A program made the translations under genes and the position numbers. Below, piece after piece: positions 43,816-62,306 of a stretch of DNA of 64,000 nt. The first letter of the stretch is position 1; every line of letters begins with the position of its first letter. The notes under the pieces were generated by a model. It worked only from the letters and a program-made list of their open reading frames with translations. It searched no databases and had not been told where the DNA came from. This DNA is from Kovacikia minuta CCNUW1 (GTDB lineage: Bacteria; Cyanobacteriota; Cyanobacteriia; Leptolyngbyales; Leptolyngbyaceae): positions 4,660,536 through 4,724,535 of the forward strand of contig NZ_CP083582.1 in NCBI RefSeq assembly GCF_020091585.1. Reading direction: 5' to 3'.

Positions 43816-45961
<2,146 letters not shown>

Positions 45962-46426
45962 CTAGCGACAATTTACGTTCTGATATTTCACCTGAAGCTT
46001 CATTCCTGGAGTCTAAACGTATAGACGTTCACTATGACAGGTTTCATTTTTACAATGGAAAATGATATAAGAGGCTCCGCGTTGAATTTTGAAACTACAT
46101 GGAACCTTTCGATCTAATAACCGCAGAAGGTTAATTTGCGTTAAGGCTACCGCCTAACTCGATTCTGAAAATATACCGAAAGTTTCGGTTTAATTGCCTG
46201 ACAGCGGAATATTATTCGGAAAGTTTCGGTTTAATTGCTTAAAACTGGTGAGATAACCTGAAATTTTCTAGATAACACCCGCAAAGAGGCAGTTAACCCG
46301 AAGATTTCAATCTAATAAGTTGTTAGGTTGCTTCAGCTCTTGATGCGGACGTTTCTTGAGGGTATCGGTAAGATGAGTTAGGATAGTGCTGCCTTCGATC
46401 AAGTTTCACTGCTAGGTATTTTCAGT
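45962..46426. other. Gene-free region upstream of the 46427 gene
   Basis: No gene. The right half holds the 41-bp degenerate repeat array described separately. The left half is A/T-rich with nothing recognised. Confidence 0.6.
46101..46340. repeat. Degenerate tandem array with a 40-41 bp period
   Basis: A core resembling CCGAAAGTTTCGGTTTAAT recurs with its TTTC at 46107, 46183, 46224, 46265 and 46305; the last four are 41, 41 and 40 bp apart and the first step is 76. Each core is followed by T-A-rich then purine-rich sequence ending TTAA- or TAA-like. Copies two and three share AAAGTTTCGGTTTAATTGC exactly. The array stops about 90 bp before the start of the nuclease-like gene. Confidence 0.65.
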
Positions 46427-47146
46427 ATGGGCGTGTGGGAAGAACAAGCAAAGCGAACAACCCAGAATAGAAAGCTATGGTCAGAAACCCAGCAGTTTAA
46501 TTTTATTCATGCTCTGCAAAATGCGACCAATGAAGAAGAAGTCAAGGCAGCCTATGTCAGGGAATTTTCTCTACCAGTTAAAACCCAGGAAAGGCATGAT
46601 TTAGTGGTTGATAAGGTTCTATTTGAGTTTAAGTACTCGGTTAAGCTTGGTGATACAGAAGTTGCGGCGAAGGTTATTGCCCAAGGAATTTATTACATTA
46701 ATCGTCTATTCAAGAAAGGGCGTTTATGTGAAGCTGAGTATCTCGTAGTTGCTGACAAAGATGAAGCTAGGCTTTTCAAAGTTACAGAATTTCAATTATT
46801 TTACGAGAGCCATGAATATCAGTGGGACAATTTTCGTCCAAGCTCTCCTGATCCTAAGCTAATTGAAGCTGTTAAAAACTCAAAAATATTAGAATCCAAT
46901 AGAATTTATAGACTTACTTCTCAAGATGATCTGCATCTGTTTTCAAGTCGTCTCTATAAAGTATTATCACCTAGTAAAACCATAAATAAATCTACAGAAA
47001 ATCCCTACAAAAATCCTAACTCGTCAAGGTCAAAATTTCTGATAATTGGATTCGGATTAATTCTACTTTTGTCGTCAGGTATTGTGATAGGAAGTCAGCA
47101 CTATTTCAATTATACAAAACAGTCAGTTCCAGCCAATAAGGAGTAA
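46427..47146 (+). CDS. Membrane-anchored PD-(D/E)XK nuclease-like protein
   Basis: A 239-residue protein. RHDLVVDKVLFEFKY contains D58, E67 and K69 in the D...ExK spacing of PD-(D/E)XK nucleases, and VIAQGIYYINRLFKKG then EYLVVADKDEARLF matches the helix-strand that follows in restriction-type members. The C-terminus has one hydrophobic helix at about 203-222 (FLIIGFGLILLLSSGIVIGS), so the nuclease domain would face the cytoplasm from the membrane. Base composition is visibly A/T-richer than the flanking housekeeping genes, suggesting transfer. The next gene begins 14 bases later. Function unknown; a role against foreign DNA is inference. Confidence 0.6.
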   Translation: MGVWEEQAKRTTQNRKLWSETQQFNFIHALQNATNEEEVKAAYVREFSLPVKTQERHDLVVDKVLFEFKYSVKLGDTEVAAKVIAQGIYYINRLFKKGRLCEAEYLVVADKDEARLFKVTEFQLFYESHEYQWDNFRPSSPDPKLIEAVKNSKILESNRIYRLTSQDDLHLFSSRLYKVLSPSKTINKSTENPYKNPNSSRSKFLIIGFGLILLLSSGIVIGSQHYFNYTKQSVPANKE

Positions 47147-47160
47147 CAAGGTACTGTACA

Positions 47161-48336
47161 ATGCCGCAAGAGAAGAAAAAGCCGCAAGTTCCAGATACTA
47201 TAATTAAAGTTGGTAGGCAAGGTGCTATATATCAACAGAAAACCTATCAAATTCTTGAAAGAACTTATGGTTCTACACACGAAGATTCAGAAGAATATGA
47301 AGAAATTATTGTAGATAGATCCGCCGCAGAAATTATTGATCAAATCAATAAAAGGGTTAAAAGCCCTTACTATTCTCTCTATTGTGGGATTGCTGCAATA
47401 TTATTCTTATTCATTTACTACCCATTGTCTATTGTTTTAGCAGTTGCAACATACGTAGTCTATAGAGCAGATGTTAAACGAAAAACGACACCACTTTTTT
47501 ATGAATTTTCTGATGATTACTCAGAGAAGAAATTTCATGACGGCATTGAATCTTTTTCTAATCTGGCTGTAACGAAAAATTCATGGCGATTAAAATCAAA
47601 AGTTGCTGTTGGCGATTGGAAGAGAAACGCTGGCTCTAACTCGGCACTCATTCGGCATCGCTCAAAGATTGGTAAACAGAGTCCAAATCTGCTTAAAACT
47701 AACGTTGAAGTGTGGGGAGTAGATGCTGGAAGTATTAAATTGTATCTACTGCCTGATCGTTTCTTTGTATTTCAAGATGGTATTTATAGTGCAATTTCTT
47801 ATAGTGAAGTTCAAGCATCCTTACAGGACTTGGAATACGTAGAACAAGAGTCATTGCCTAGTGATGCAACTGTTATTGGGAAAACCTGGAAATATGTTCG
47901 CCGTGATGGTGGCGCGGATCGACGATTCAATAATAATCGTCAGCTCCCTATCGTAAGGTATGGGGTAGTTGCGTTTTCTTCACCAAACTTTACTGCCTAT
48001 TTAATTGTTTCCAGTCTCGGAATTGCTTCATCTTTTACCCAATCCTTTTCTAAAATTTTAGCTTCATCTAGTACTGGTACTAAATCTCTACCTCTCTCAG
48101 ATAGTCAATTTCAAGCTGCTTCACTAGAAACGGATCATTCTCTAGAGCATCTAGAACCTTTGAGAAAAGCAGCATCTCAAGGTTCAGAATTAACAACTAG
48201 CCAAATCGCTCAGTTGCTTGGTGTGTCTACTTCGTTTATCACTAAAAATCCCGTCAGCTTTGACTACGAAGGGTTTCGTTTTGTTCGTTCAGGTCGTTCA
48301 GGTCGTCAAATATCTTGGAAAGTTGAGTACCTTTAG
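47161..48336 (+). CDS. Membrane protein with C-terminal HTH-like domain, partner of the 46427 gene
   Basis: I do not recognise the family. The 391-residue product has an acidic/charged N-terminal region (VGRQGAIYQQKTYQIL), two close hydrophobic helices at about 72-98 (IAAILFLFIYYPLSIVLAV), a mid region rich in strands (VEVWGVDAGSIKLYLLPDRF, FFVFQDGIYSAISYSEV) and a C-terminal helix-turn-helix (LTTSQIAQLLGVSTSFITKN). It is A/T-rich like the preceding gene and 14 bases from it, so the two form a transcription unit. The pair could sense and cut, but no evidence of mechanism is visible. Confidence 0.65.
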   Translation: MPQEKKKPQVPDTIIKVGRQGAIYQQKTYQILERTYGSTHEDSEEYEEIIVDRSAAEIIDQINKRVKSPYYSLYCGIAAILFLFIYYPLSIVLAVATYVVYRADVKRKTTPLFYEFSDDYSEKKFHDGIESFSNLAVTKNSWRLKSKVAVGDWKRNAGSNSALIRHRSKIGKQSPNLLKTNVEVWGVDAGSIKLYLLPDRFFVFQDGIYSAISYSEVQASLQDLEYVEQESLPSDATVIGKTWKYVRRDGGADRRFNNNRQLPIVRYGVVAFSSPNFTAYLIVSSLGIASSFTQSFSKILASSSTGTKSLPLSDSQFQAASLETDHSLEHLEPLRKAASQGSELTTSQIAQLLGVSTSFITKNPVSFDYEGFRFVRSGRSGRQISWKVEYL

Positions 48337-48359
48337 ATATTGTCTGCAAATGCAACCTA

Positions 48360-49059
48360 ATCGGGTAACAGGGAGGTTTTCCCTCCCCGTCCCCACGGCA
48401 CCCCGCGTGCGGCTCCGCACGGGGCGCGTCCTCAGAAAGGTTTAGACGATCCAATACCAAGGAATTGGTGTCTAGGGCTGGTTACGCAATTAAGCGCCGA
48501 CAATTTAGCTCCCCCATCCGGGTTCATCGCCACGTCGAGCTTTACGGCTCCTCCCTGCTCTCTGAAGTTCAGCCCTTCACCCTGTCTCACCCATTACAAT
48601 GAGCGTTTGGCTACTATGGCTACGGCACGACTTCTGCTCAATCACCCCCAGCGTTACCACCAGACGCGCTGCCTCAATTTCCGTAGGGTTCTGTGGCTCC
48701 CTAACCGTTTCCAGCTAGACCTCAATCAGACTCCCTTAGACACTCAGACCGCCTCTTGAGCAGATCTCCCCAGATAAGAGCGTGAACTGTCGCTGCACCA
48801 CTGCATCATTTACTGTGTTCCTTGAACCAAATGGCTTTGTTGTGTTGTGCCAACTCGCCACAGGAATCTCAGCCTTCTATGATGTTTCTGTTCGTCAGTT
48901 CGCAGCTTTGCCGCTGGCTTCCTTCAGACCCTTCCTCGCGGAAACGCCCTTGCCTTAAGCTAGTCGTTAGCGTCACTCGGATCTTTTCGATCATTTGGAC
49001 GTTGGTTCTCCGACAGGGGACTTTCACCCCATGAGTTCACGCCCATGCTGGGCGTACAC
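48360..49059 (-). mobile_element. ORF-less group II intron
   Basis: On the minus strand the element begins GTGTACGCCCAGC, a group II 5' end (GTGYG-like), continues with the domain I stretch GGGGTGAAAGTCCCC and the GTCTGAAGGAAGC motif typical of bacterial introns, and ends with a domain V-like hairpin around 48400-48440 and a domain VI-like GGGAGG...CCTCCC stem finishing in CCCGAT. Length is about 700 nt with no reverse transcriptase ORF. It may be mobilised in trans, though the maturase at 60570 belongs to an intron with a different 5' end and domain V. Its 5' exon side faces the methyltransferase gene. Confidence 0.75.
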
Positions 49060-49146
49060 ACTACGTTGGTGCGGACTAGCAAATGATCTTGGTTGAGGTG
49101 TAGAAGTTATTGGTAGCCGCTCAACCGGAACGTTATGGTTTAATTT

Positions 49147-60121: not shown

Positions 60122-62306
60122 GTGCGACTGACTCTCAATCGTCTGAAGCAGGGATAAAAGGCGGTCACTCAGAATCCGACTGAGAATCCCGTCGAGCAGA
60201 GTTGCATAGGGCTAACGTAAGTAAATTCACATCTGAACCATCGTCAACGGCGAACAAGCCCACGCGGATTTATGGGCTTGCCCAAAAGGGAACGGATCCG
60301 AGGCAGGGAGTTGCCGAACTAATCTGCAAACACTCTCATATGATCCCGGTGGAAAGTGGGAGCCTACGTGCAGCGCAAAACGGAAGTTGGGAACGAAGTA
60401 AACTCCTCAACTACTCTCTGGATCGGTCGATACCAGAGTAGGTTGTCAGCCACATGGGTTGAGGAGGAAGGATTGTCTCAGAAGCCAACGCCTTTGGGAA
60501 AGCCAGAGGATATGCAGACGGAGACACAGCAATTGGGAGGGTAGGGTTGTGAGTCGCAATGAAAACGTCATGAGCGAGTTAACGACTACGTATGAATGGA
60601 ATGCTATTCCCTGGCGCAAGCTGGAGCGAAAGGTATTTAAATTGCAAAAGCAAATCTACCGAGCCACTTGTCGTGGTCAACGAGCAAAAGTTCGCAGGCT
60701 TCAACGACTCCTAATCCGCTCTTGGGCAGCGAGAGTCCTGGCAGTCCGGCGGGTGACGCAAGACAATGCAGGCAAGAAGACAGCAGGCATCGACGGCTTA
60801 AAGTCGCTTCTACCCAATCAACGGCTGGATCTTGCCCAACGGCTTCAGCATCACTGGGGGAAAGCCTCCCCCACTCGTCGAGTTTGGATTCCTAAACCGG
60901 GCAATGCAGCGGAACGAAGACCGCTGAACATTCCAACGCTCGAAGATAGGGCAAGACAAACCCTATTCAAGCTGGCGCTGGAACCGCAATGGGAAGCCAA
61001 GTTTGAGCCGAATTCGTTCGGTTTCCGCCCCGGACGCTCCTGTCATGACGCGATAATGGCAATCTACAGCAACGTCTGCCATCAATCTAAATGGATTTTA
61101 GATGCAGATCTTGCCAAATGTTTTGACACCATTGCGCAGCAACCCTTGCTGGAGAAACTGAACGCCAGTCCATTTGTCACTCGGCAAATCCGAGCTTGGC
61201 TGCGGGCAGGCGTGATAGATAACTTCCAACTTTGTGAAACACCAGAAGGTGTGCCACAAGGCGGAAGTCTTTCACCCTTACTGGCGAATGTCGCCTTGCA
61301 TGGTATGGAAACCTATGTTACCCGCTATTGCAAAGGGGCGAAGGTGGTTCGTTATGCCGATGACCTGGTGGTGATGCACCCGGAACGCAAAGGCATCGAA
61401 CAGGCTCAACGGTTACTCTCCAAGTGGTTGCAGAAAATGGGACTGGCATTTAAGCCGAGTAAGACTCGCCTCTGTCATACGCTCAAGGCCGTTGATGGAC
61501 AGGTTGGGTTTGACTTCCTAGGTTTCGCCATTCGGCAATACCGAGTGAGCAAATATAAATCTGGGCGGTCAATGAAAGGTTATAAGACGATTATTAAACC
61601 CAGCAAAGCAGCAATGCAGAGACACGCCCAGCGCTTAAGGGGTGTAATTAGAAACCACAAAGCGGCTCCACAGGTGGCTTTGATAGACCATCTCAATCCA
61701 ATGATTCGGGGATGGTCCGGTTACTACTCTGCCCAGTGCAGTAAAGCAGCCTTTTCTAGGCTCGATTACTTGCTCTACCAAAAGCTACGAGCTTGGGCTC
61801 ATCGTCGCCATCCCAGCAAGAGCGGCTATTGGCGAGCCAGTCGCTACTGGTTAGTCAATCAGGGAGGTGGATGGGTCTTTGCTGCTAGACAAGGAGGGAA
61901 GCAGGTGCGGCTCCGCACGCATAGTGAAACTCCCATTGTCCGGCACATCAAAGTCCAGGGCAGTCGCAGTCCCTTCGATGGGGACTGGAGTTACTGGGCA
62001 TCCCGGATGGGCAGCCATCCAGAACTACCCACTCAGATTGCCAAACTGTTGAAGCACCAACGCGGCAAATGCGCTCACTGCAAATCGTACTTCAAGTCAG
62101 AAGACCTTTGGGAAGTCCACCATCTGGACAAGAATCACCAAAACCACAAGTGGGATAATCTGACGTTGATCCACCAGCACTGCCACGACCAAGTTCATTC
62201 AGGTATGCATGACAAGCACCCAGTTGTTGAGGAGCCGTGTGAGGTTAACGTCTCAAGCACGGTTCTGTAGACCAGCGGAGTGGGTGACTGCTCCGCTGAG
62301 TTTAAC
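60122..62306 (+). mobile_element. Group II intron with maturase
   Basis: The 5' end GTGCGACTGACTCTC is a group II consensus start. Domains I-IV lead into the maturase ORF. Domain V is GAGCCGTGTGAGG...AAGCACGGTTC around 62232-62266, overlapping the end of the ORF, and domain VI is the AGCGGAG...CTCCGCT stem ending at GAGTTTAAC. Boundaries are judged by eye; the 3' end may be off by a few bases. It is inserted just after the IS66 remnant. Confidence 0.85.
60570..62270 (+). CDS. Group II intron-encoded reverse transcriptase/maturase with HNH domain
   Basis: A 566-residue intron-encoded protein starting MSELTTTYEWN. The reverse transcriptase domain has RRVWIPKPG, PLNIPTLEDRARQ, FGFRPGRSCHDA, EGVPQGGSLSPLLANV and YADD at 262-265. 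The maturase X domain follows (LNPMIRGWSGYY), and the C-terminus has an HNH endonuclease (CAHCKSYF, EVHHLDKNH, NLTLIHQHCHDQVH). All catalytic residues seen are intact, so it could splice and mobilise the intron. Confidence 0.94.
   Translation: MSELTTTYEWNAIPWRKLERKVFKLQKQIYRATCRGQRAKVRRLQRLLIRSWAARVLAVRRVTQDNAGKKTAGIDGLKSLLPNQRLDLAQRLQHHWGKASPTRRVWIPKPGNAAERRPLNIPTLEDRARQTLFKLALEPQWEAKFEPNSFGFRPGRSCHDAIMAIYSNVCHQSKWILDADLAKCFDTIAQQPLLEKLNASPFVTRQIRAWLRAGVIDNFQLCETPEGVPQGGSLSPLLANVALHGMETYVTRYCKGAKVVRYADDLVVMHPERKGIEQAQRLLSKWLQKMGLAFKPSKTRLCHTLKAVDGQVGFDFLGFAIRQYRVSKYKSGRSMKGYKTIIKPSKAAMQRHAQRLRGVIRNHKAAPQVALIDHLNPMIRGWSGYYSAQCSKAAFSRLDYLLYQKLRAWAHRRHPSKSGYWRASRYWLVNQGGGWVFAARQGGKQVRLRTHSETPIVRHIKVQGSRSPFDGDWSYWASRMGSHPELPTQIAKLLKHQRGKCAHCKSYFKSEDLWEVHHLDKNHQNHKWDNLTLIHQHCHDQVHSGMHDKHPVVEEPCEVNVSSTVL

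Follow-up and report, generated by a model that had tools for sequence, protein, structure and literature searches.

The window analysed here, meaning the whole stretch of 64,000 nucleotides from the 8.56 Mb genome of Kovacikia minuta CCNUW1, contains two adjacent genes, A and B, which are probably a rare, undescribed anti-virus module. Gene A (46427..47146, plus strand) is an ORF of 239 aa encoding a nuclease domain followed by a C-terminal membrane helix, and gene B (47161..48336, plus strand) is an ORF of 391 aa encoding a membrane protein with PH-like and winged-HTH domains. The parts of the pair are each of a known kind, and their combination appears to be new. The general proposal is that A and B act together at the membrane as a two-gene antiviral nuclease module, which has moved horizontally and leaves host DNA intact because of where the nuclease sits. 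It is judged to have about the same chance of being right as of being wrong. Against it stand the presence of the pair in two genomes only, the neighbouring genes, which are not defence genes, and the possibility that A, with its single membrane pass, is a toxin in its own right.

The positions of both ORFs, together with the 14-bp gap between them on one strand, agree with those given in an earlier note on this DNA. That note had also described the genes as A/T-rich, and the composition bears this out, with a GC content of 34-41% in A and B versus ~50% in the flanks. A likely promoter of the pair lies at 46356..46384 (plus strand), consisting of a -35 hexamer TTGAGG, a 17-nt spacer and a -10 hexamer TAGGAT; it is absent from the listing produced by a generic consensus scan.

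A search of 386 cyanobacterial genomes with A and B, extended with A to further genomes of the orders of both hosts, recovered A in just one other genome, G129, which belongs to another family and order. There, B again follows A. The G129 proteins are 80% (A) and 83% (B) identical to those of the window, and homology at the DNA level (82%) runs from 46355 to 48333 and then ends. Both promoter hexamers and their 17-nt spacing are identical in G129, with a diverged spacer sequence. The block of homology thus reaches from the -35 box to the end of B, indicating that the shared unit comprises one promoter and two genes. In G129, the pair is located near apparent phycobilisome genes, and ligA, which lies upstream of the pair in the window, is found on a different contig. 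A and B have moved horizontally as a unit and occupy two different genomic locations.

Comparison of the two copies gives a dN/dS of 0.14 for A (dS 0.84, 239 codons) and of 0.13 for B (dS 0.70), which indicates that both genes are under purifying selection. These low ratios, together with the existence of so similar a pair in a second genome, imply that A and B are more than chance ORFs. They also bear on the idea that A, which is devoid of methylase and recognition parts, is merely the degenerating remnant of a type IIG restriction enzyme and no longer has a function. This reading is strongly disfavoured and regarded as very improbable, given the low ratio sustained over all codons of A at this dS and an active site and anchor that are intact in both genomes.

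The PD-(D/E)XK domain of A covers residues 20-180 (46484..46966, plus strand) and displays an E...D...ExK pattern formed by E36, D58, E67 and K69, with strands at 59-61 and 64-68 in the model. These four residues are conserved across the aligned relatives, both standalone phage proteins and methylase-fused ones. The helix that follows contributes two more conserved residues, Q86 and Y90, and in the more distant viral fusions D58 is displaced in the alignment. In an AlphaFold2 model made with no templates, the core has a pLDDT of ~90. Its best match among solved structures is the nuclease domain of DrdV (Z 8.4, 114 residues, rmsd 2.9), followed by HsdR (Z 6.4) and NucC (Z 5.7), with FokI, PvuII, RecU and others scoring lower. 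Foldseek gave weak matches to the model (best E 0.09), DrdV again being first, and the best matches among viral models were a standalone 196-aa protein and an adenine-specific methylase. Structure prediction therefore favours a PD-(D/E)XK fold for A, in line with the nuclease-like domain proposed in the earlier note. At the level of sequence, A had no significant match in Pfam or NCBIfam and only weak ones in PHROGs (E 0.18 and above), the PDB sequence search was empty, and profile searches of the PDB gave nothing usable.

Relatives of A provide a further line of evidence. In a permissive tblastn search, A matched a Vibrio phage protein that stands alone and the N-terminal ends of large proteins encoded on plasmids. 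Further relatives from phages and chromosomes came from profile searches, and one of them, used as a query in turn, led to others on plasmids. Of the chromosomal relatives, two (L086 and L087) share 36% identity with A over ~135 residues. In nearly all relatives, the nuclease domain is N-terminal to a methylase, which is the order of MmeI. The fused proteins contain GxFxTP, a motif-I-like stretch and NPPY/F, arranged as nuclease, spacer and methylase, and some of them lack a clean match to GxFxTP or motif I. In MmeI, the nuclease occupies residues 1-155 and is followed by a spacer and a gamma-class methylase from residue 301, the tested catalytic residues being D70 and E80-x-K82 (PMC4833311). 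The catalytic residues of BsaXI are E73, D90, E105 and K107 (PMC11997821).

Among the Pseudomonadota-type and Bacillota-type genomes surveyed, only two more A-like domains came to light, one in a methylase fusion and the other (L114) in an open frame of 809 aa. No relative emerged from a first genome scan with a two-sequence A profile, and viral scans with A alone, the Vibrio phage protein, A6 or B alone found none. Several candidates were rejected. A Piscinibacter GNAT match proved to be a chance hit, being an acetyltransferase with no active-site pattern, and two weak cyanobacterial profile matches were recognised from their sequences as a helicase with an intein-like insert (L081) and a phosphohistidine-phosphatase-like protein (L083).

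On the basis of these relatives, the conserved residues and the DrdV-like model, A is assigned a PD-(D/E)XK domain of the type IIG lineage. With the MmeI/DrdV type IIG (IIL) enzymes it shares an N-terminal cleavage domain of this fold, the E...D...ExK residues and the best structural match, and its homologues include uncharacterised fusions in MmeI order, encoded by plasmids, phages and chromosomes. In contrast to these enzymes, A has no helical spacer, gamma-class methylase or target-recognition domain; instead, a membrane helix follows the nuclease, and a second membrane protein, B, is encoded alongside. Neither A nor B matched a methylase family or contained an NPPY-type motif. Since methylase and target recognition are absent and the chain ends at 239 aa after the helix, A is no restriction-modification enzyme.

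The C-terminal transmembrane helix of A spans residues 203-224 (47033..47098, plus strand; hydropathy, KD 2.53). The corresponding segment of the G129 protein is also hydrophobic (KD 2.75) though its sequence has changed, which speaks for the membrane helix that the earlier note had placed at this end of the protein. As judged from sequence, this predicted helix takes the place of the methylase and target-recognition parts. K/R residues precede it, and the nuclease is therefore expected, from hydropathy and charge under the positive-inside rule, to face the cytoplasm. Overall, the fold and the anchoring of A are well supported.

Gene B combines three regions. Its hydrophobic hairpin, identified by hydropathy, covers residues 75-101 (47383..47463, plus strand) and is a single 27-residue stretch broken mid-way by Pro88. 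The earlier note had described B as having two membrane helices and an HTH; the HTH is real, and the helices are represented by this one interrupted stretch, two helices being plausible because DUF4236-type relatives have two separated stretches. The PH-like core, predicted by AlphaFold2 at residues 112-305 (47494..48075, plus strand), carries the motif TWKYVRRDGG.DRRFNNNRQLP, conserved across phyla. The structural matches to the B model are dominated by PH, PTB and FERM folds, with a modest best Z of 7.2. No significant match to B was found in Pfam or NCBIfam. Its similarity to phrog_17982 reaches E 3.2e-26, and the phrog_17982 part follows DUF4236 in proteins of many plasmids and prophages. 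The membrane hairpin and PH-like core of B, the latter with the GG.DRRFxxNRQLP motif of the group, are clear members of this phrog_17982/DUF4236-type group, from which B differs in two respects: it has no recognisable DUF4236 N-terminus (no PF14020 match even at E 10), and it ends in a winged HTH of cyanobacterial kind.

This winged HTH, modelled by AlphaFold2 at residues 325-391 (48133..48333, plus strand) with the order H-E-H-H-E-E-E, had no Pfam match above the cut-off (HTH_6, E 0.014). Homologous tails extend the C-termini of cyanobacterial RNase HI and of small HTH proteins, and for this reason the tail of B looks like a local cyanobacterial addition. As a separate observation, the same winged-HTH tail is common to RNase HI, small two-HTH proteins and gene B (loci L011-L024).

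The company kept by the B-type core elsewhere is informative. In two small-genome cyanobacteria, it lies in one operon between an MkoC-like helicase-nuclease and a DUF4011-helicase-nuclease of PDC-S37/Hhe type. Salinibacter has the core joined to the C-terminal portion of a PDC-S37 protein, and on a Pseudomonas plasmid the neighbours of the core are GajB-like helicases and a PDC-S37 protein. On an Arthrobacter plasmid (L030:5629-12585), SngA carries a fused N-terminal membrane/PH-like domain of the phrog_17982 kind and is followed by SngB and a helicase, constituting a Shango-type system; Shango is a tested antiphage system (PMC10250203). These fusions and neighbourhoods support the view that the B-type domain serves in defence, as an accessory module in the membrane. 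Some members of Shango (SngABC), Hhe and PDC-S37 thus carry or adjoin a core like that of B. In contrast to A and B, these are helicase/ATPase systems, and A and B match no SngA/B/C, Hhe or PDC-S37 models. The cyanobacterial operon with the MkoC-like gene (L107:3683-12247 and L108:6918-15478) is itself apparently undescribed and is adjoined by an ion-channel-like gene; its three genes encode the MkoC-like helicase-nuclease, a DUF4236/PH-like/zinc-ribbon membrane protein and a zinc-ribbon DUF4011-helicase-MTES_1575 protein.

Many other B-like genes, on plasmids and in prophages, stand by themselves, and no nuclease was recognised in the flanks examined; the B core therefore need not be a nuclease partner. 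In a reciprocal profile scan of ~60 other loci, A-like and B-like genes never occurred together. The expectation that homologues would generally be paired was thus not borne out, the pair being found in the two cyanobacterial genomes only; the prediction of pairing is limited to this small lineage and may rest on a single transfer. Such findings suit the idea that A and B are co-moved neighbours acting separately, A as a lone nuclease and B as a stand-alone DUF4236-type membrane regulator. Exact co-transfer, a single promoter, the 14-bp gap and equal dN/dS values argue for joint action, leaving separate action with only a slim chance.

For the pair as a joint system, we infer a defence role and a complex between A and B. 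The closest parallel in design is SNIPE (PD-lambda-1), a membrane-bound nuclease that cuts phage DNA during injection, some homologues of which have PH-like domains with a presumed role in membrane targeting (PMC13190303). Both systems appear to combine a membrane-anchored nuclease with a DNA-binding part and PH-like parts, and neither includes a methylase. They differ in that SNIPE is a single gene with DUF4041, an N-terminal anchor and a GIY-YIG nuclease, whereas A/B consists of two genes, with a C-terminal anchor and an unrelated nuclease fold; no GIY-YIG or DUF4041 Pfam match was obtained. Hence, the likeness is one of design, drawn by analogy, and not of membership.

A more specific version of the proposal is that a restriction cleavage domain has lost its methylase and gained in its place a membrane anchor and a DNA-binding membrane partner, discriminating self from non-self by location as a SNIPE-like entry nuclease. 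It is advanced tentatively, as something rather less than an even prospect. Under the general proposal, A would be an MmeI/DrdV-type (type IIG) cleavage domain, split from methylase and target recognition, anchored at its C-terminus and facing the cytoplasm. The hairpin of B would lie in the same membrane, its PH-like platform binding A, a lipid or a phage or host entry protein, and its winged HTH would hold DNA. Subunits of A would dimerise and then cut the DNA presented to them, most likely phage DNA during entry. Host DNA would escape because the nuclease stays at the membrane and becomes active only when DNA is presented to it at that site. Both the cutting at entry and the logic of self-protection are put forward as hypotheses.

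The main rival to the general proposal is abortive infection, in which B would sense infection or membrane disturbance and release or activate A, so that host DNA is degraded and the cell dies. The structural match of A to NucC, a PD-(D/E)XK nuclease of abortive infection, is in keeping with this, as is the frequency of sensor-plus-effector gene pairs in defence, and B, with its membrane, HTH and PH-like parts, could serve as a sensor. However, the nearest relatives of A are direct restriction enzymes, a membrane anchor would hinder its reach over the whole nucleoid, and no ligand-sensing or proteolytic domain was recognised; abortive infection is accordingly considered unlikely, at perhaps one chance in four or five. 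Less probable still is that the pair is aimed mainly not at phages but at other incoming DNA, such as that of plasmids or transformation, or at the handling of DNA at the membrane. A membrane-tethered nuclease with a DNA-binding partner would suit such tasks, and HTH tails of this kind occur on cyanobacterial nucleic-acid enzymes, for example RNase HI. Set against this are the very sporadic distribution and horizontal transfer of the pair, which speak against housekeeping, and the behaviour of the analogue SNIPE, which leaves plasmid transformation unblocked (PMC13190303).

With regard to novelty, the statement in the earlier note that no described system has this make-up agrees with the searches, in which A and B matched 0 families of PADLOC-DB 2.0.0 at E up to 10, in addition to the Pfam and NCBIfam results given above. 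The combination was likewise not found in family libraries or in the open-access literature, absence from the latter counting as weak evidence. It is only recently, with SNIPE, that a membrane-bound nuclease has been shown to discriminate invading DNA by location. If the SNIPE-like entry model is true, the pair would represent a second, unrelated nuclease fold with the same design, built from restriction-modification parts, suggesting a general strategy. It would also provide a simple way to test whether location can stand in for methylation, and it would help to explain the recurrence of the B-type PH-like membrane domain in defence loci.

The surroundings of the pair call for brief description. 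No defence island is in view around it, the flanks being ligA and a high-copy intron. What had been taken for a repeat array upstream of A is a palindromic degenerate repeat region (46070-46330) composed of two 41-nt copies and palindromic scraps, and Tandem Repeats Finder reported no tandem array there. A second genomic copy of this repeat is located at G000:C1:7227172-7227334 (83% over 165 nt), where the opposite strand matches too (70%), as expected of a palindromic element. Further upstream, ligA, which encodes the NAD-dependent DNA ligase (43816-45961) and is normally essential, is split across two frames in the assembly; its alignment to a relative follows one frame to about residue 203 and another from residue 192 on, pointing to a frameshift in the assembly.

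Downstream, about 20 bp past the end of B, begins an ORF-less group II intron of ~0.7 kb on the minus strand (48357-49060, copies extending to ~49076). The mobile intron of the earlier note is therefore present. Its many near-identical genomic copies, at least eight others of full length in the host genome, identify it as a general mobile repeat that is no part of the A/B system. This copy number suggests that the element spread recently and relied on a reverse transcriptase provided in trans. Elsewhere in the window, at 62230-62306 on the plus strand, lies another group II intron end (Rfam Intron_gpII).
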